Both the position numbers and the translations under genes were made by a program. Below, in pieces: positions 8,519 through 16,349 of a stretch of 42,679 nt of DNA. Every line of letters starts with the position of its first letter. Position 1 is the first letter of the stretch. The stretch comes from an uncultured Bacteroidales bacterium (GTDB taxonomy: Bacteria; Bacteroidota; Bacteroidia; Bacteroidales; Muribaculaceae). Below the pieces are notes generated by a model. That model was not told the DNA's origin, did not search any database, and saw only the letters and a program-made list of their open reading frames with translations. The stretch lies in NCBI GenBank assembly GCA_947072905.1, contig CAMTKF010000020.1, positions 1 through 42,679 of the forward strand. The letters run 5' to 3'.

Positions 8519-9504
8519 CTGAATCCGAAAAGTGTTTGGTTAATTTTAAATGAAAATATTGACTTTGAAATTAATATAATAAGCGATGATATAATTAGAA
8601 TCAAACACCAGTCAAGAAACCAATTATTAGAGAAATAAAGATATTCCAACCCTAATTTTACATACATATGCAGGAAGTATATACCAAAAGATATCTCTCC
8701 TATTCGCAGAATTATTCTGGTCAGATAGTTTTGTTTATATCTTTTTTCTGTCTTTGGAGAAAGTAAACTTAATATAACGCCGGTAGAAAAAATGAAAGAA
8801 CTCAGCTTTATGCCTATCCCGCCGGTGTGATATGTTTTGAAATAATAATTCTCAGCAACAGACGCGACAAATCCTATAAACATTACAGCCAAAGAGACAG
8901 GTAAAGAAAATCTTTGTCGATGGAAAGAAATATAAATTCCCAACATAAAAAAGAAAATCCATAACACACAAGGTCCTGCATAAAAGATGAGACCTATCTT
9001 TAGTTGTTTAACATATAAAATGTATGAAACCACAGTTATACATATTGCCGAGATTACACCTGTAACGATGAGAGCTGTTGAGGAATCTTTGTATTTTAGT
9101 AGAATTGGTGCAAGAATATAGAACTGTATTATCAGTGCTATAAAATAATATATAGAAAAGCCACAGAAAACGAGATTGAATATATTAATGGGTAAATTGT
9201 CCAATTTAGAGAATTGCATTTCGAGTAGAAACCATCCCGATGAGAAGACTATGCATGGTATGTATACGGTTGGAATTTGCCTTTTCCAAAATGCTTTACA
9301 ACGTTCAGGTGTTGACAGGTCTTTTTTAGCAATAAAGAAACCAGATAAAGCTAGAAACAACGGAACAGCACAGTTCAAAATCTGTCGCATTAACATATAT
9401 GGCAATTTGTCAGAATAGCTTAAAGAAAATGTATGTATTCCTACCACCATAATTATGGCAATGCCACGTAAAAAGTCAAAGTATGCAATACGTTGGTTGC
9501 TCAT
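8515..9504 (-). CDS. Acyltransferase 3 family membrane protein
   Basis: A 329-residue protein with about ten membrane segments. FDFLRGIAIIMVVGIHT (9-25) contains the family residues R13 and H24, which mark acyltransferase 3 (OafA/WecH-like) enzymes. Such proteins move acyl groups, usually acetyl from cytoplasmic acetyl-CoA, across the inner membrane to a glycan. Together with the two hexapeptide enzymes this makes three acyltransferases in one operon, so the mature polysaccharide is probably heavily acylated. The start overlaps the wzx stop by one base (TAATG). Acyl donor and target are unknown. Confidence 0.88.
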   Translation of the reverse strand: MSNQRIAYFDFLRGIAIIMVVGIHTFSLSYSDKLPYMLMRQILNCAVPLFLALSGFFIAKKDLSTPERCKAFWKRQIPTVYIPCIVFSSGWFLLEMQFSKLDNLPINIFNLVFCGFSIYYFIALIIQFYILAPILLKYKDSSTALIVTGVISAICITVVSYILYVKQLKIGLIFYAGPCVLWIFFFMLGIYISFHRQRFSLPVSLAVMFIGFVASVAENYYFKTYHTGGIGIKLSSFIFSTGVILSLLSPKTEKRYKQNYLTRIILRIGEISFGIYFLHMYVKLGLEYLYFSNNWFLDWCLILIISSLIILISKSIFSFKINQTLFGFR

Positions 9505-11015
9505 TAGAATTTTGGAAAAACTTTTCGTATAGGGATAGATACAAGTCCACGTTCATAATCGTTTAAGCTATAACGCCAAAATGTTGGTATATAAACAGCC
9601 AAATAAATAGCTATGCAGACTGCAAGGGTTCCCCAATTAGTTATATCGTAAAATTTAAATGTAAATAATGCAATTAGTGTAACAAATATCGGAGCTATTG
9701 ACATCTTTGTTATCTCTTTCCAAAAGTTACGGATGTCAAGATGTTGTACATGCGAATAGTAAATATTCATAATTATCCATTGTCCGATAAATAAAGCTCC
9801 TGTAACTGCAGTGGCACAGCCTATAACTCCAAAATGTTTAGTCAAAATTACCTGGAAAATCAGGCTGAAAATAGCGATAAATAAATAGCATAAAGACCTG
9901 AATTTCTGTTGTCCTCGTGCCTGTAAAATTACAAGTCCGACATTTTGTATCAACGGGCAGATTAAGACAAGAAAAAACATTAGCGTAATGACAAATGATT
10001 TAGAGTAGTCCGTACCGGCCCAAATTCTGATAAATGCACTTCCAAAAACACTAAAACCACAAGCTATCAAAACAAGAACTGAAAATTGCAGCCTTCCGGT
10101 CTTCAAAAAAATATTCGAGATTTCGCAATCATTTTTTGAATCTGTGGCTAAAGTCGTGATTTTTGGTAGAAGAACGGAATTAAATGATGTGGACAAGGTA
10201 AGATACATTGACATTAGCGATATTGCTACTGAGAAGACTGCCACACTCGCAGGACCACTATATATTCCTAAAACAAATTGGCCGGTAGACCAATAAATTC
10301 TATCTACAATAGCCCCCAGGAAATTCCACCAACTAAAAACCATAATCTCTTTAAAGAGCGCGATCTTAAAATTGCGAAAATAAACCTTAATCTTCAGCTT
10401 ATATTTACAATATAAATAATTAACTACAAGATTAAGTATGCTGAAAATAGTTTGAACAATAACAAGCCCAATTGCTTTGTATCCAATTAGTAATACTGTA
10501 ATAAGTACGACCGTTGATAACACGATGCGTATAATGCTTACTACTCGTTGGAACACAAATTTCTCGTATGCTGTAATTATAGAGCCAAATACACTGAATG
10601 GGAATGAAACCGCGAGATTTGCCACCATCAATGCCATCATGATTCGGGCTTGATGAAGTTCTTCAAGAGACATCGTTCGGTCGAACATCCTATCGACGTT
10701 AAAATACAGTAATAGACCGGCAATAGTAACAATCACACCTATTATAGTATAACCACTAACAAACATGCCATAAAGTTCCCACTCGTCATTCTTTGTGCCG
10801 GTAGCTTTTATCCTTGCTGTATAGCGCACAATTGCCGAACCAAAACCGAAATCAAGTAATGTCAAATAAGCTATTACTGATGCAACTATTGAATATAATC
10901 CATATTCATTCTGGCCTAACGAGCGAAGCATAAACGGCGTGTACAATAGGCCTGTCAAAATATTTAATACAACAATTACATAGTTCAGTAGTACTCCAGC
11001 TTTTATCTGATTCAT
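9504..11015 (-). CDS. wzx: Wzx-type oligosaccharide flippase
   Basis: A 503-residue inner-membrane protein with 12-14 predicted segments in the MOP/PST superfamily. The N-terminus (NYVIVVLNILTGLLYTPFMLRSLGQNEYGLYSI) and the ILQARGQQKF region in the C-terminal half are typical of polysaccharide biosynthesis flippases. It should move the lipid-linked repeat unit from the cytoplasmic to the periplasmic face for the EpsG-like polymerase. The ATG at 11015 is preferred over an in-frame ATG 15 codons upstream because it begins the family sequence MNQIKAGVLLNY. It is the first structural gene after the upxY regulator, separated from it by about 285 bases. Confidence 0.9.
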   Translation of the reverse strand: MNQIKAGVLLNYVIVVLNILTGLLYTPFMLRSLGQNEYGLYSIVASVIAYLTLLDFGFGSAIVRYTARIKATGTKNDEWELYGMFVSGYTIIGVIVTIAGLLLYFNVDRMFDRTMSLEELHQARIMMALMVANLAVSFPFSVFGSIITAYEKFVFQRVVSIIRIVLSTVVLITVLLIGYKAIGLVIVQTIFSILNLVVNYLYCKYKLKIKVYFRNFKIALFKEIMVFSWWNFLGAIVDRIYWSTGQFVLGIYSGPASVAVFSVAISLMSMYLTLSTSFNSVLLPKITTLATDSKNDCEISNIFLKTGRLQFSVLVLIACGFSVFGSAFIRIWAGTDYSKSFVITLMFFLVLICPLIQNVGLVILQARGQQKFRSLCYLFIAIFSLIFQVILTKHFGVIGCATAVTGALFIGQWIIMNIYYSHVQHLDIRNFWKEITKMSIAPIFVTLIALFTFKFYDITNWGTLAVCIAIYLAVYIPTFWRYSLNDYERGLVSIPIRKVFPKF

Positions 11016-11103
11016 TTTACAAAAAAAATTGTTTGTCTTTTGAATACAGTTTAATACCAATTATTTATTACCTGGATCTTTTTATATTATAATAAAGAGA
11101 TAT

Positions 11104-11149
11104 CAATAATAAAAAACCAATGAATGCAATAATAATTTGCATTGGTTTA
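11104..11149 (-). terminator. Hairpin plus T-tract between upxY and wzx, possible attenuator
   Basis: Read in the operon direction, AAACCAATGCAA (11149-11138) can pair with TTGC-ATTC-ATTGGTTT (four bases bulged), closing a 6-7 nt loop, and is followed at once by a T-rich run (TTTTTTATTATT). The stem is AT-rich, so it should be a weak or conditional terminator. Its position just before the structural genes fits an attenuator whose effect could be overcome by UpxY. The antitermination role is inference. Confidence 0.45.
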
Positions 11150-11230
11150 TTGATACTTTAATGTCGTTAAAAGATGTCAATATGAATCTTGGTAATATCA
11201 AGGTAACTTTTGGTTGCGTTTATAAATAAG

Positions 11231-11265
11231 TATTAAATAGCAAGCTTTTATATATCTATTTAATA
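11231..11265. repeat. 10-bp perfect inverted repeat in upxY-wzx spacer
   Basis: TATTAAATAG (11231-11240) and CTATTTAATA (11256-11265) form a perfect inverted repeat around a 15-bp spacer, starting 35 bases after the upxY stop. As RNA it makes an all-AU-rich stem. Together with the hairpin at 11104-11149 these are the only visible structures in the 285-bp gap; no gene or -7 box was found there. Confidence 0.5.
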
Positions 11266-11299
11266 TCTTGGCACTTTAATTTTGCAACACGTGGTTACC

Positions 11300-11845
11300 T
11301 CAAACCAATTGTATGAATCCGTCGGCGATTTCGACTGAGGCGGTGAGGAGGCCTTTGAGTTGTACGACGAGGCGTTTGTTCTTGGAGCCTCTTTGTTTTA
11401 GCAGATGGCCTACCGCGCCGTCCATCACTCCGCCCACTATCTTTACTTTTTTGCCGAGCATGTCGGGGGTTATGTCTGCGGGGGAGTAGTAGATGCACGA
11501 TGAGTGTAAGGCTGTAACTGCCTTGACGAACCGGGTCATATCATCTATCGGAACGATCATCGGTGTCTCGCGTGCACCTTTAATGTATGTGTATTGAAGG
11601 GTTTCTGTCTTTTCAATTATCGGGTCAAGCTCTGATTTGAGCGATTTAACGAAAAGCAGCCCGTGGATGAATGGCACATATTCACGCGTTGTGCTTCCGG
11701 TGGTTTTGCCTTTTAACACCCAATGCATAGGGGTAAATGTCTCAAAGCCCAGTTCCGGCAGAACTTTGTATGCAGGTGCTTTCGCATTTGGCCTTTTAAG
11801 GTCGCGCAATACAAACCAACATGGTGTGTCAAATTCCTCTGCCAT
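11300..11845 (-). CDS. upxY: UpxY-family transcription antiterminator (NusG paralogue)
   Basis: A 181-residue protein with an N-terminal NusG-like domain (CWFVLRDLKRPNAK at 9-22, YVPFIHGLLFVK around 56-67) and a C-terminal KOW region at about 131-175 (GKKVKIVGGVMDGAVG). Members of the UpxY family, described in Bacteroides fragilis, head capsule operons and prevent premature transcription termination within their own locus. Here it is the first gene of a 12-gene polysaccharide operon, with a ~200-nt leader upstream and an AT-rich hairpin spacer downstream. No UpxZ-type partner is adjacent. The base composition is nearer that of the housekeeping genes than of the AT-rich genes it controls. Confidence 0.92.
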   Translation of the reverse strand: MAEEFDTPCWFVLRDLKRPNAKAPAYKVLPELGFETFTPMHWVLKGKTTGSTTREYVPFIHGLLFVKSLKSELDPIIEKTETLQYTYIKGARETPMIVPIDDMTRFVKAVTALHSSCIYYSPADITPDMLGKKVKIVGGVMDGAVGHLLKQRGSKNKRLVVQLKGLLTASVEIADGFIQLV

Positions 11846-12259: not shown

Positions 12260-14353
12260 CTATTTCAAGATTGCAGAACCGGCAGTGCCCGAACCTGATA
12301 TTTCGTTGTTACGTTGTACTTTCTTTCCATATCCAATGGTATATGTGACAGATACCGAATATCGTGAATGGTGCTGTGTTCCGAATGTTGTGCGGTCAAA
12401 ACTATAATTCTCGCTCGATAATGTTTCCTTATAGTCCTCCCATGAGGTGTGGAAGAAATTATATGCGGATGCGTTAATATTCCATGCTCCCTTACCCCAG
12501 CCTATCTGAATCTGATATTTGGAAGGAGTACGGCTGATGACTCCGCTATGATTTTCTTGATACTTGCTTGGGGTCATGTAATAGCCCCATAGGTAAAAGT
12601 TCCCGAAATAGTACGTGAGCTGGGCTGTACAAGTCAATTGGTTGTTGCTCCACGCATAATCGCCCGTGGTCTTCCGAACCCAAAATTGAGGACGAAGTTT
12701 TGCAACGAGTTTACCTCCAAAGAATTTTCCGGTAGCGTTTATACCGATATAATCACTATAGTAGTCTCCGCCGTTGAAATATTGGCGCAGCATAGCTCCA
12801 TCAGGTCCGGTGGGAGAATAAAGAGTCACACATCTGTCCTTGATATAGCCAAAATAAGCATCAGCGGTCAATTGCCAACGGTTATTTGGCAACCATGTAT
12901 ATGACAGCAACGCGTTGGTGTACTTGTAATCCTTTAATTCAGGGGTTCCCTTATACCACATCAGCTCATCCTGCTGAAGCATATTCGGGCTTTTCTGAGA
13001 AGCATTTGGGAACATTGAGCCGTAATTGGCTGTGAAGTACAGTTGATTCTTGTCATTGGGCGACCATGTGGCGTTGATATTTGTCTGAGGAAAATTGTTG
13101 TCAGCATTTACGCCTGATATTCTGTTTGTCTCCCAGATCCATGCCAAACCTGCTCCCACATTCCATTTCTCATTGAAAATGTGCTGATAATTCTGCCCGA
13201 GGAAATAAATACCTACATCATATTTTTGTTTGGATGGTGAATTACCAAAGTAGTTGATAATGTTCCAATCATGCTGAACACCAAAATTGGAGAAGAATTG
13301 GTTTGACTTATTTGGATTCCATGTCAGGTGAAGATATGTCGTAAGCTTATGGACATCTTCCTTTGCATTGTTGATTATAGACAAACCATCAGGAATGCGG
13401 AAATTTGAATTAGATGAATTACGGCCATAAGTATAGGTTGCGTCAATATTGAGAGCCACCTGCTTGGACAGCATGAAGAAATATCCGCCCACATAGTTCA
13501 AAGCCCAATCTTTAGATGATGAAATTGTGGATGATTCTGATTCAGGAAATATATCGGAAGAATATGACAAGCTATTGGTCAAGTCGTTGTGCGGAATATT
13601 TGTCAGACTGTACGAGACTCTGTTTGAGATTTGTATATTCTCTGTGTTGTATAGGGCGCGAACGCTGAAATCATTACTGTTATTCCTATACAGGGACGCT
13701 TTTGTGTCGGAATTTCTTGTAACGGACATTGGACCATCTCCATTGAAGTCTGTAAAATTGAAGTGTTCCGTTGATGACAGACCCTTATGTCTGTTTGTAA
13801 GATATATCTCATCGGCAAATACATCAAAGGTCATCCGCTTATATGTCATCTTTGAGTATAGCGACCCCTCTGTACGATTAACACCGAACCATTTGTCGGC
13901 AGTAAGCTTGGTATATCCTCCCCATTCGTATTTTTGCATCACGAAGTTAATGACATATTTGGCACCCTGAAAACGTGCATCAGAGGGGTGAGTGTAGTAT
14001 TCAACTTTCCTGACATCCTGTGTCTTCATTCCTTGAAGGTCTGCAGAGGTTGCCGGAATATAATCAATGAAGATAGATACGTTTTGACCATGAGCCGTTT
14101 TAACAGCGAGATTTATGGGGTCAACGTCAATCTGAGGTATTGACATCTGAGAAAGCAGAGCTACCGCATTTTGTGCGGAATTTTTCTGACGAGCCATAGG
14201 AATGTAGGTCGATACCTCTACATTTGTCCTTTGGTTAGAAGCTTCTATTACGACTTCGTTGAGTTCTTGAGTTTTTATTGAATCAGAAGCTCCATTCTGC
14301 GCCAATGCTAAGATTGGAAGCAGTGCCATAAGTATTGCTATTATTGTCTTCAT
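12260..14353 (-). CDS. TonB-receptor-like outer-membrane beta-barrel protein
   Basis: A 697-residue protein with a signal peptide (MKTIIAILMALLPILALAQ), a short TonB-box-like stretch (ELNEVVIEA), a plug-like domain to about residue 145 (QMSIPQIDVDP, FIDYIPATSADLQGMK, DVRKVEYYTHPSDARF) and a long barrel rich in alternating aromatic strands, ending in a beta strand. It lacks the carboxypeptidase-like N-terminal domain of SusC proteins and has no SusD partner, so it belongs with the smaller 'outer membrane beta-barrel family' receptors; the substrate is unknown. A frame 55 codons longer exists, but the ATG at 14353 is the one that begins the signal peptide and lies about 20 nt after the promoter. 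It is divergent from the unknown gene at 14646. Confidence 0.85.
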   Translation of the reverse strand: MKTIIAILMALLPILALAQNGASDSIKTQELNEVVIEASNQRTNVEVSTYIPMARQKNSAQNAVALLSQMSIPQIDVDPINLAVKTAHGQNVSIFIDYIPATSADLQGMKTQDVRKVEYYTHPSDARFQGAKYVINFVMQKYEWGGYTKLTADKWFGVNRTEGSLYSKMTYKRMTFDVFADEIYLTNRHKGLSSTEHFNFTDFNGDGPMSVTRNSDTKASLYRNNSNDFSVRALYNTENIQISNRVSYSLTNIPHNDLTNSLSYSSDIFPESESSTISSSKDWALNYVGGYFFMLSKQVALNIDATYTYGRNSSNSNFRIPDGLSIINNAKEDVHKLTTYLHLTWNPNKSNQFFSNFGVQHDWNIINYFGNSPSKQKYDVGIYFLGQNYQHIFNEKWNVGAGLAWIWETNRISGVNADNNFPQTNINATWSPNDKNQLYFTANYGSMFPNASQKSPNMLQQDELMWYKGTPELKDYKYTNALLSYTWLPNNRWQLTADAYFGYIKDRCVTLYSPTGPDGAMLRQYFNGGDYYSDYIGINATGKFFGGKLVAKLRPQFWVRKTTGDYAWSNNQLTCTAQLTYYFGNFYLWGYYMTPSKYQENHSGVISRTPSKYQIQIGWGKGAWNINASAYNFFHTSWEDYKETLSSENYSFDRTTFGTQHHSRYSVSVTYTIGYGKKVQRNNEISGSGTAGSAILK

Positions 14354-14379
14354 ATTGGAGATGTTTTTGTTTACTGATG

Positions 14380-14387
14380 CAAAATTA
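14380..14387 (-). promoter_or_regulatory. -7 box for the outer-membrane barrel gene
   Basis: TAATTTTG followed by C matches TAnnTTTG and would start transcription about 20 nt before the ATG at 14353. It lies exactly 20 bp outside the left arm of the inverted repeat at 14408-14465, mirroring the plus-strand box at 14486. Confidence 0.7.
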
Positions 14388-14407
14388 CTATCGCAAAAAA
14401 TTCCTTG

Positions 14408-14465
14408 CCATACCCAAAAGTGTACGTTTGCATTTGCAGGCGAAAATATACACTTTTGGGTATGG
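14408..14465. promoter_or_regulatory. Perfect 17-bp inverted repeat between divergent promoters, probable operator
   Basis: CCATACCCAAAAGTGTA (14408-14424) and its exact complement TACACTTTTGGGTATGG (14449-14465) flank a 24-bp spacer. Arm centres are 41 bp apart, about four helical turns, so two protein dimers or a looped complex could bind one DNA face. The outer edge of each arm falls where a -33 element is expected for each divergent promoter, so a bound factor could contact RNA polymerase in both directions. No regulator is proven; the LuxR-type gene at 15206 is a neighbour candidate. Confidence 0.75.
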
Positions 14466-14485
14466 TACTGACTTGGGAAGTTCTC

Positions 14486-14493
14486 TAATTTTG
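14486..14493 (+). promoter_or_regulatory. -7 box for the divergent unknown gene
   Basis: TAATTTTG followed by C, identical to the box of the divergent promoter and exactly 20 bp from the right arm of the inverted repeat. It implies an unusually long leader of about 145 nt before the gene at 14646; the leader contains short hairpins such as CTTGC-aaa-GCAAG near 14579. Confidence 0.65.
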
Positions 14494-14645
14494 CGATGGA
14501 TAATTCTGCCTGCGGCAACGCGCACCGGGTTGTTCCCGTTGATCACCTACTACGTGGTCAGCCTACATGCGCTGAATTCTTGCAAAGCAAGCGCCGAGGC
14601 GATAATCCACGCGCGATTAGATAATTGCATCATAAAAATAATGAT

Positions 14646-15158
14646 ATGACAAGCGAAGAAAAGAATAAGATTGAGAGCTGCCGGGTAATGATAGTTGGCA
14701 GGGGTGAATTTGCAGACGCTATCAATACGGCTTTGCTAAAAGTCGGGTTTCTCGATGTTATATATATGGAAGCTCCGACGGGGTCTGCCGATATTGCGGT
14801 TGACTTGGCGATGAATGGAATATCGGCCCGTTTGGGCGGCAAATTGCCGGTAGTATATCCGTTTGATTTTATAGAGGGTGGCGCGGCTATGGTTGTGATG
14901 CCCGATGATAAGGTTGAATTTGAGGCACAGGGCGACGTGCGCCTGTGTGCCGCAAAGTATATGTCGGGTTATTGTGCGTTTTGGAATATTGATAACAGCG
15001 ACTGGTTACGCTTGGTATTGCCGAGGATTGAGCAGGGCGAACAATCCGCAAAGGCGCAGCAAACAGCAGCCTGTGTCTGCGCCCGGATATTGGCTAATAT
15101 CGCAGTGGGGCGCGATGTGAAGCACTTTCCGAGATTTTATTTAGTGGAGAGGGGGTAG
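14646..15158 (+). CDS. Unknown protein with Rossmann-like N-terminus
   Basis: A 170-residue soluble protein; an ATG seven codons upstream (14625) is also possible. I do not recognise it firmly. Residues 12-40 (SCRVMIVGRGEFADAINTALLKVGFLDVI) have the strand-loop-helix pattern of a Rossmann or ThiF/E1-like fold, but the usual glycine-rich GxGxxG is reduced to GRGEFA. The C-terminus (CARILANIAVGRDVKHFPRFYL) also vaguely recalls the end of ThiF-type proteins. There are no membrane segments or signal peptide. It shares a symmetric control region with the outer-membrane barrel gene and converges on a LuxR-type regulator, so it may serve the same pathway; this is inference. Confidence 0.7.
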   Translation: MTSEEKNKIESCRVMIVGRGEFADAINTALLKVGFLDVIYMEAPTGSADIAVDLAMNGISARLGGKLPVVYPFDFIEGGAAMVVMPDDKVEFEAQGDVRLCAAKYMSGYCAFWNIDNSDWLRLVLPRIEQGEQSAKAQQTAACVCARILANIAVGRDVKHFPRFYLVERG

Positions 15159-15210
15159 GGGAGAGTGTAGGGAAATCATATTAGATTATTTCTCTCCACT
15201 CTCCACTAAA
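15140..15210. terminator. Inverted repeat built from the ends of two convergent genes
   Basis: TTTAGTGGAGAG (15140-15151) and CTCTCCACTAAA (15199-15210) are perfect complements, and inner segments (GGAGAGTG...CACTCTCC-like) can extend the stem. The arms lie in the last codons and stops of the convergent genes at 14646 and 15206, giving a shared bidirectional terminator-like hairpin. Confidence 0.55.
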
Positions 15211-15961
15211 AAACTTTGTTATTTGCTGCTGCTGCGATAGCCTCGGATATGTTGCGCACACCGAGTTTTTCAAAAATGCGCTGACGGTATTTCTTGACTG
15301 TGTCGGGCGAAAGGCAGATGCGGTCGGCAATCTCCGACATCGTGTAGCCTTGTATTGAAAGTGTAAGCACCGACTTCTCCCCCTCGGTAAGACTCGGCAT
15401 AGTGTTCTTATCCCACCGACGGGTGACGGGATTAAATGCGAAATAGTCGGGGGTGCCGACATGGTGCATTTCGATATGGCCGGGCGTGGTATGGGTGGAA
15501 GCGGACACAACGCAGAGGGCAAGCCAAATCCTGCCGTCGGAAGTCAGGGCAAGGGAAGTCAGCTTATGATTGATAAGAATTGGATGGCCGTCGTTGAGAA
15601 TATGAAAATCGTATGATATATACCAATCCTTGCGCTGTTCGAGTGGGATTTGATTGTGAAAGGCAAAGCCCACGCGGTTTATGTCGAGCAAAAGGGCCTG
15701 TTCGTCCTCGGGCACAAATTTGAGATAGAACTGGTAGCCGAGATCAATCATCTGCTCCGGCGAAAGTCCGCACAAGAACATAGGATTGGGCGACACATAC
15801 AGGAAATTCTGCTTGAAATAGTCTATTATATAGACGCTTTGGTATGTAGAGCGAGAAAACGCCTCTGCGGAGCGGACATATTCGTCCACTCTGCTGTAAT
15901 CAAGCTCATCAGGCTGCTTGACTTCGTTGTCGGGTATGAAAAATTCGTTTAGCGTTTTCAT
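15206..15961 (-). CDS. LuxR-type transcriptional regulator with PAS-like sensor region
   Basis: A 251-residue protein. The last 65 residues form a LuxR/GerE helix-turn-helix: LTEGEKSVLTLSIQGYTMSEIADRICLSPDTVKKYRQRIFEKLGV, with the typical glutamates and the VKKYRQ recognition helix. The first 150 residues (IIDYFKQNFLYVSPNPMFLCGLSPEQMIDLGYQFYLKFV) look like a PAS fold that could sense a small molecule or redox state; there is no receiver domain. The ATG at 15961 is preferred over one 23 codons upstream because a -7 box lies just before it, though this leaves a very short leader. Its target is unknown; the symmetric operator at 14408 is the nearest candidate. Confidence 0.85.
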   Translation of the reverse strand: MKTLNEFFIPDNEVKQPDELDYSRVDEYVRSAEAFSRSTYQSVYIIDYFKQNFLYVSPNPMFLCGLSPEQMIDLGYQFYLKFVPEDEQALLLDINRVGFAFHNQIPLEQRKDWYISYDFHILNDGHPILINHKLTSLALTSDGRIWLALCVVSASTHTTPGHIEMHHVGTPDYFAFNPVTRRWDKNTMPSLTEGEKSVLTLSIQGYTMSEIADRICLSPDTVKKYRQRIFEKLGVRNISEAIAAAANNKVF

Positions 15962-16259: not shown

Positions 16260-16349
16260 TGGCGGAGAGGACGAGATTCGAACTCGTGGTAGGATTGCTC
16301 CTACGTCAGTTTAGCAAACTGGTGGTTTCAGCCACTCACCCACCTCTCC
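16260..16349 (-). tRNA. tRNA-Ser(GCU)
   Basis: A 90-nt class II tRNA. The acceptor stem GGAGAGG pairs with CCTCTCC, the discriminator is G and the CCA end is encoded. The anticodon stem-loop reads CAGTTTGCTAAACTG with anticodon GCT, which reads AGC/AGU serine codons. A long variable arm (TAGGAGCAATCCTA) and the T-arm CGAGTTCGAATCTCG are both present. The long variable arm is the serine identity feature. Confidence 0.97.

Follow-up and report, generated by a model that had tools for sequence, protein, structure and literature searches.

A 42,679-nucleotide stretch of DNA from an uncultured Bacteroidales bacterium (hereafter the window) contains a perfect inverted repeat between two divergent promoters and raises the question of which protein binds the repeat and whether that protein controls both flanking genes. 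The reading that we favour, with a probability of about 0.78, is that the repeat comprises paired sites for a LuxR-type (PAS-GerE) protein, which would activate both genes by a class II mechanism, within a receiver-only cassette derived from an N-acyl-cyclolysine (ACL) circuit.

Each arm of the inverted repeat contains a dyad

The repeat consists of a left 17-bp arm, CCATACCCAAAAGTGTA, at positions 14408-14424 of the forward strand, and a right 17-bp arm, the exact complement of CCATACCCAAAAGTGTA, at positions 14449-14465 (reverse strand), separated by a 24-bp spacer (14425-14448) that has an A-tract, GAAAATA, next to the small-gene-side arm. Two copies of the sequence TAATTTTGC, corresponding to the −7 consensus TAnnTTTG (PMC7366714), are located 20 bp outside the respective arm edges: one at 14379-14387 on the reverse strand, for the leftward promoter of an outer-membrane-protein (OMP) gene, and one at 14486-14494 on the forward strand, for the rightward promoter of a small gene. 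This arrangement is as described in the initial annotation, apart from end coordinates that were off by one. The repeat is the sole perfect inverted repeat of at least 14 bp, with a gap of up to 100, in the 42.7-kb window, and when the 292-bp intergenic region was shuffled 1000 times with its dinucleotides preserved, the longest such repeat to arise was 13 bp.

Each arm contains its own dyad, TACCC-N4-GTGTA: a 14-bp dyad, TACCCAAAAGTGTA, at 14411-14424 in the left arm, and a 14-bp dyad that reads TACACTTTTGGGTA on the forward strand, at 14449-14462 in the right arm. The 17-bp arm is real, but the unit is the 14-bp dyad. The centres of symmetry are therefore those of the dyads and lie 38 bp from each other, about 3.6 turns of DNA, and not, as first proposed, 41 bp, about four turns. 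The dyad centre is 30 bp upstream of TAnnTTTG and would be located near −41 if the box, like the −7 element described in PMC7366714, is centred at −7. The outer edge of the arm falls at about −31, rather than at −33 as previously assigned; position −33 is occupied by the arm end GTATGG, and TTTG is absent at −33 in both promoters of the window. As read from the sequence, both promoters have class II activation geometry.

The operator pair is conserved with its neighbouring genes

The window's genome (G000) contains two further operator pairs, C86 and C49. The C86 pair has the same 24-bp spacer as the window, has −7 boxes 20 bp out on both sides, and is flanked by genes for a paralogous small protein and an OMP_b-brl_3 protein; the C49 pair, with a spacer of 14 bp, has a single box, which precedes an esterase-like gene. 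A match at C58, a lone site with two mismatches inside a transporter-like ORF, was rejected as an operator and is probably due to chance.

The genomes searched were samples of the family and order; many were metagenome-assembled, and some had doubtful labels, such as Staphylococcus or Saccharibacteria in the record title. Within the family, 5 of 198 genomes contain the exact 15-mer pair. The consensus pair is present in 18 of 397, as compared to 0 of 397 for a reversed control. A match to the small protein occurs in 49 of 397 genomes (30 close matches, E<=1e-35; remainder weaker or partial), and all 18 consensus-pair genomes are among these 49. Of 30 small-protein loci, 23 have both arms ahead of the small gene, and a slightly different pattern gives the same count with L039 included and L047 excluded. 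The small gene is behind a DUF6624-kind gene with its own dyad in L033, L038 and L040 (Pfam having been run on L033 only), follows one decayed arm (one mismatch at 38 bp) in L023 and L046, and follows a single arm in L028; some neighbours are missing because of contig edges. The results show that the operator is retained where relatives keep the gene pair, and that pairs recur beside the same neighbours in related genomes. This conservation strongly supports the earlier proposal that one regulator serves both genes.

Separately, one locus (L036:968-1450, in G220) contains two complete operator pairs about 425 bp apart, as if the cassette had been duplicated or inserted.

The dyad and the −7 box are in fixed register

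In the consensus operator, 23 bp separate a 14-bp dyad, TACMC-N4-GGGTA, from the downstream TAnnTTTG. In a scan without a preset distance, the box was found at exactly 23 bp for 73 of 148 distinct strict dyads, as compared to a chance expectation, for a box at a given position, of 0.0007, or about 0.1 of 148 dyads. (Several loci represent the same genome under different ids; counts marked as distinct have been dereplicated by sequence.) The other dyad-box distances were 15 (1), 19 (2), 27 (1), 40 (1), 53 (1) and 60 bp (4); 65 of the 148 dyads had no box in range, a number to which the reading of symmetric dyads on both strands contributes. For 33 distinct pairs, TAnnTTTG was located exactly 20 bp out on 58 of 66 sides, a one-letter variant was found on four sides, and none was found on four.

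An exact second dyad was present within 119 bp for 80 of 118 distinct dyad-plus-box sites. The remaining 38 are single-dyad promoters, and pairing is therefore not obligatory. The centre-to-centre distances were 28 (1), 34 (1), 37 (6), 38 (45) and 39 bp (10) and, at longer range, 49 (1), 50 (2), 59 (12) and 69 bp (2); two additional small-gene pairs, one in Bacteroides muris (L076), have a distance of 49 bp. All distances except 34, a single case off the ladder, differ from 38 by whole turns to within about 1.5 bp; the ladder rests on few events because divergent pairs are counted twice and the 59-bp cases look like one lineage. The conserved feature is phase (28/38/49/59/69) and not, as had been supposed for the window, a whole number of turns. 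Both arms are retained at the four promoters that lack a box on one side (L009, L036:968, L073:54 and L091:2929), which weakens the idea that each arm serves only its own promoter, though single-dyad promoters exist. One 69-bp operator pair (L082:4863-4965) has a third, partly decayed dyad between its arms.

The fixed register bears on whether the regulator would activate or repress. With the same operator and the same regulator, a dimer could cover the −33 region and block polymerase until released by ligand; the arm edge does cover the −33 region, and some LuxR-type proteins repress. We consider repression unlikely, since the exact 23-bp register and the helical phasing fit an activator that touches sigma better than steric blocking, since the two promoters of the window have no TTTG at −33, and since the dyad centre near −41 is comparable to the position of the lux box, −42.5 (PMC7585371). 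In the activation reading, the dyad, the 23-bp interval, TAnnTTTG and the second dyad at 28, 38, 49, 59 or 69 bp would constitute a readable DNA code for a LuxR family of Bacteroidota, and regulons would therefore be predictable from sequence.

A LuxR-type protein is the best candidate binder

The gene at 15206-15961 (reverse strand, ATG at 15961), convergent with the small gene, encodes, at 15209-15961, a LuxR-type protein with a GerE domain (PF00196, E 1e-13). AlphaFold and Foldseek indicate a PAS-like domain plus a GerE domain, with 3clo as the nearest structure (Foldseek E 3e-13; profile E 5e-18) and VqmA as the next; whole-chain TM-scores of the model are low, 0.45 with 3clo and about 0.3 with VqmA. 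A tRNA-Ser gene (16260-16349) is located just upstream of the LuxR gene and is a possible integration point of the cassette.

In 27 of 30 loci, a LuxR gene faces the small gene convergently at a distance of no more than about 0.6 kb; three of these LuxR genes are imperfect (L020 is truncated at a contig end, L040 is split into two pieces and L046 is incomplete). None was found in the other three small-gene loci (L028; L033, at a contig edge; L037). At the level of genomes, a LuxR match (E<=1e-20) is present in 47 of the 49 small-protein-positive genomes, as compared to 2 of 15 other chosen genomes; the window's genome has two small-gene copies and one LuxR match.

The half-site changes with the LuxR clade. 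KKYRQ occurs with TACAC..GGGTA, and KKYRK or R with TACCC..GGGTA; KSARR/KTARR occurs with CACAC..GTGTG or TACAC..GTGTA; KSRRR/K occurs with CACMC..GGGTG; and KACKR/KAYKR occurs with TACMC..GTGT(T/C/A/G). More distant LuxR clades have different half-sites in an unchanged architecture. Within the KKYR clade, recognition helix and half-site agree in 36 of 37 rows, with L050 as the exception; the sites of L052 are mixed. This set of rows is incompletely dereplicated, and some loci appear in it more than once. The tree of KKYR rows has three residue changes, four operator changes and one supported independent pair, and, because there is only one such pair, a sign test for covariation is not significant. 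With 1 to 3 independent changes, the covariation is no more than suggestive of LuxR specificity that tracks the operator, and natural protein-DNA covariation of this kind offers a way to test half-site choice by GerE domains.

The combination extends to a different family. L136 has a LuxR protein (47% identical) and a full ThiF protein, together with a pair of TACCCAATTGGGTA dyads at a distance of 38 bp; a box at 23 bp faces an OMP-like gene whose start is about 0.5 kb beyond. A symmetric scan of the seven other loci from the same search (L137-L143, five genomes) found no such site, and a looser pattern gave one site, in L143.

Another regulator, encoded elsewhere, could bind the dyads, with the LuxR gene as a linked passenger; binding by the LuxR protein is a prediction from sequence and models, and no LuxR gene is among the ORFs listed around the C49 pair. 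This we judge improbable, more so than repression, given the co-occurrence of LuxR with the small gene, the half-site changes that follow LuxR clade and recognition helix, and a dyad shape that is usual for GerE dimers. We conclude that the LuxR-type protein, already proposed as the one to test, is the best candidate binder of the operator, and that the inverted repeat is very probably the binding place of this neighbouring protein, which would switch on both genes.

The spacer has a fixed orientation

The A-tract pattern of the spacer is on the small-gene side in 23 of 30 distinct small-gene pairs and on the other side in 0 of 30. Promoters of Bacteroidales can flip between inverted repeats (PMC4747536 and PMC8748976), a precedent for reading the repeat of the window as a site for site-specific recombination. 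We reject this reading as highly improbable: the orientation of the spacer is fixed, the −7 boxes are outside the repeat, and the arms are themselves dyads that track the LuxR clade and that also occur singly. That the repeat is a chance palindrome, an RNA hairpin or a terminator, for none of which we found support, has negligible probability, since the shuffles, the conservation across genera and the reversed control argue against chance and since both boxes direct transcription outwards, so that the repeat would be in neither RNA.

The two putative target genes

The small gene (14646-15158, forward strand) encodes a 170-aa protein, initially annotated as an unknown soluble protein and now identified by profile and model as a shortened AclA-like (ThiF/E1-fold) protein. 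The structure closest to the model (pLDDT 90) is 9egb, 'AclA from Tenacibaculum discolor', with a TM-score of 0.83 normalized by query length. A profile that includes full-length homologues matches 9egc/9egb at E 9e-46; the small protein alone matches only AclA entries, at E 2e-7, over its C-terminal half only. Three 250-aa homologues tested are ThiF proteins (PF00899, E about 1e-36), and one of these full-length proteins, that of L109, gives E 5e-91 against the sequence of the AclA structure, with SUMO E1 next best at 4e-14. The small protein lacks the stretch from D-x-V-x-x-SNLNRQ to INALDFK that is present in full-length homologues. By profile and predicted structure, the small protein is a shortened relative of AclA with the ThiF/E1 fold, minus the adenylation segment.

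The leader of the small gene contains a structured insert (14495-14632, forward strand; RNA fold z −3.28) that, by sequence comparison, is missing from most relatives and that, at the search threshold, has one copy in the window's genome. A related, shorter insert was seen by eye at the same place in L023, L029, L030, L031 and L042, and none was seen in other relatives.

The leftward gene (12260-14353, reverse strand, ATG at 14353) encodes a 697-aa outer-membrane beta-barrel-like protein. The protein has no Pfam match even at E 1, and its N-terminal 147 aa are 32% identical (E 6e-18) to a protein of L121 that itself matches PF14905. In the clade of the window (L018-L023), the LuxR protein is 90-97% identical to the window copy where whole (five of six loci), the small protein is 84-92% identical, and the opposite gene encodes one of two OMP types, an esterase-like protein or a 240-aa protein that by eye is lipoprotein-like. 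The cargo thus appears exchangeable, since LuxR and small protein stay alike while the opposite gene varies; the partner, predicted in the initial annotation to be an outer-membrane receptor, is not always a receptor. Further left, the window has an UpxY-type antiterminator gene and a polysaccharide biosynthesis (flippase-like) gene (9504-11845), possibly a capsule-like locus adjoining the OMP gene.

Relation to ACL circuits

ACL signalling in Bacteroidota is reportedly the subject of a 2025 article in Nature by Linares-Otoya et al. (doi 10.1038/s41586-025-09418-9). AclA is the ThiF-like, signal-making enzyme of this system, and an ACL circuit has an acyltransferase for lysine acylation. Such signalling is described in PMC13419125. 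Among the titles listed in literature searches, none concerned this operator or receiver-only cassettes, either of which Linares-Otoya et al. 2025 may already describe.

Compared with LuxR proteins from loci that encode AclA-like proteins, the LuxR protein of the window is 43-55% identical. Seven loci (L109, L110, L113 and L117-L120) have a full AclA and a 208- to 210-aa protein under the same operator; the example tested is FeeM-like (PF21926, E 9e-4, below cut-off), and the 208-aa acyltransferase had no match to PDB sequences up to E 0.1. An oxazolone (OxzAB-like) reading of the acyltransferase and ThiF pair was set aside, the closest structure being AclA. The acyltransferase is present in 12 of 51 genomes, all 12 of which have a full AclA homologue, and in 2 of 30 short-form genomes (those with a close small-protein match), both of which also have a full AclA match. 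The window's genome has no acyltransferase match (E<=1e-4) and no full AclA match (E<=1e-15); a ThiF-like AclA with the adenylation motif, absent in the window, is present in the sister locus L109.

The AclA-like gene has no exact second dyad in any of 14 loci (L107-L120), whereas all seven acyltransferase sites have a second dyad at 38 or 39 bp. One dyad versus two suggests different thresholds for the two genes, and an ACL-type circuit with two-threshold wiring is possible on this pattern.

Two further observations were made. A radical-SAM-like protein (Fer4_12, weak SPASM) and small GG-motif peptides are under the same dyad grammar (L108:2240-3292, L114:5051-5254, L113:5042-5185 and L109:598-825), a set that resembles modified-peptide clusters. 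In G228, two acyltransferase genes of equal score on a single contig (C7:17218-17841 and C7:20559-21182) are each 94% identical to the query.

Proposed mechanism

According to the activation reading, one regulator dimer would bind each 14-bp dyad, at a position centred near −41 relative to the promoter it serves, and would act as a class II activator that contacts sigma factor. Two dimers at a fixed helical phase would help each other, or the second dyad would aid the opposite promoter, and the A-rich spacer may help polymerase. Upon ligand binding by the PAS-like domain, the regulator would activate the OMP gene on the left and the gene for the shortened AclA-like protein on the right, as well as the further copies (C86 and C49) in trans. 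The sequences show the grammar of the operator, its conservation, the partnership of the genes and the homologies; from these we infer binding by this LuxR protein, activation, ligand and small-protein role, and ancestry is the ground for proposing an ACL as the ligand. The cassette would descend from an ACL-type circuit (LuxR, AclA and acyltransferase) in which synthesis was lost and the receiver kept, and the shortened AclA-like protein may bind signal or regulator instead of making signal.

The gene content suggests that the module listens to a chemical signal apparently not made by its own genome. As a broader proposal, tentative and somewhat short of an even chance, gut Bacteroidales may carry receiver-only modules derived from ACL circuits, each combining a sensor or brake that has no catalytic activity with a surface protein that can be exchanged, and these modules would respond to a signal from neighbours. 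The sensor or brake would be the cut-down synthase homologue, working with the PAS-LuxR protein, and the surface protein would be encoded opposite it, controlled by a twin operator with helical phasing. In this case, commensals of the gut that lack genes for signal synthesis may still sense ACL-type signals and alter their surface proteins.

Comparison with known systems

The locus shares with invertible promoters of Bacteroidales the presence of inverted repeats near surface-protein promoters but differs in that the promoters of the window are outside the repeat and no inversion was seen. The best structure match of the regulator, 3clo, is a LuxR-domain protein of Bacteroides thetaiotaomicron (NP_811094.1) and is 23% identical. 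In a PG1237/HmuR parallel from Porphyromonas, PG1237 is called a repressor. With LuxR/lux-box class II activation and LuxR solos, the locus shares the GerE helix-turn-helix, a dyad centre near −41, and a receiver without a synthase gene; it differs from both in having a PAS-like ligand domain (nearest 3clo and VqmA), two dyads in a helical ladder, and a retained, shortened synthase homologue. With the ACL system, it shares a LuxR-type regulator beside an AclA-like protein and an operator grammar common to the window and the full-AclA loci, and the sister locus L109 has a full-length AclA relative with a FeeM-like acyltransferase nearby. It differs from the ACL system in that the AclA-like protein of the window is without the adenylation segment, the genome is without an acyltransferase or full AclA match, and the putative targets include surface proteins.
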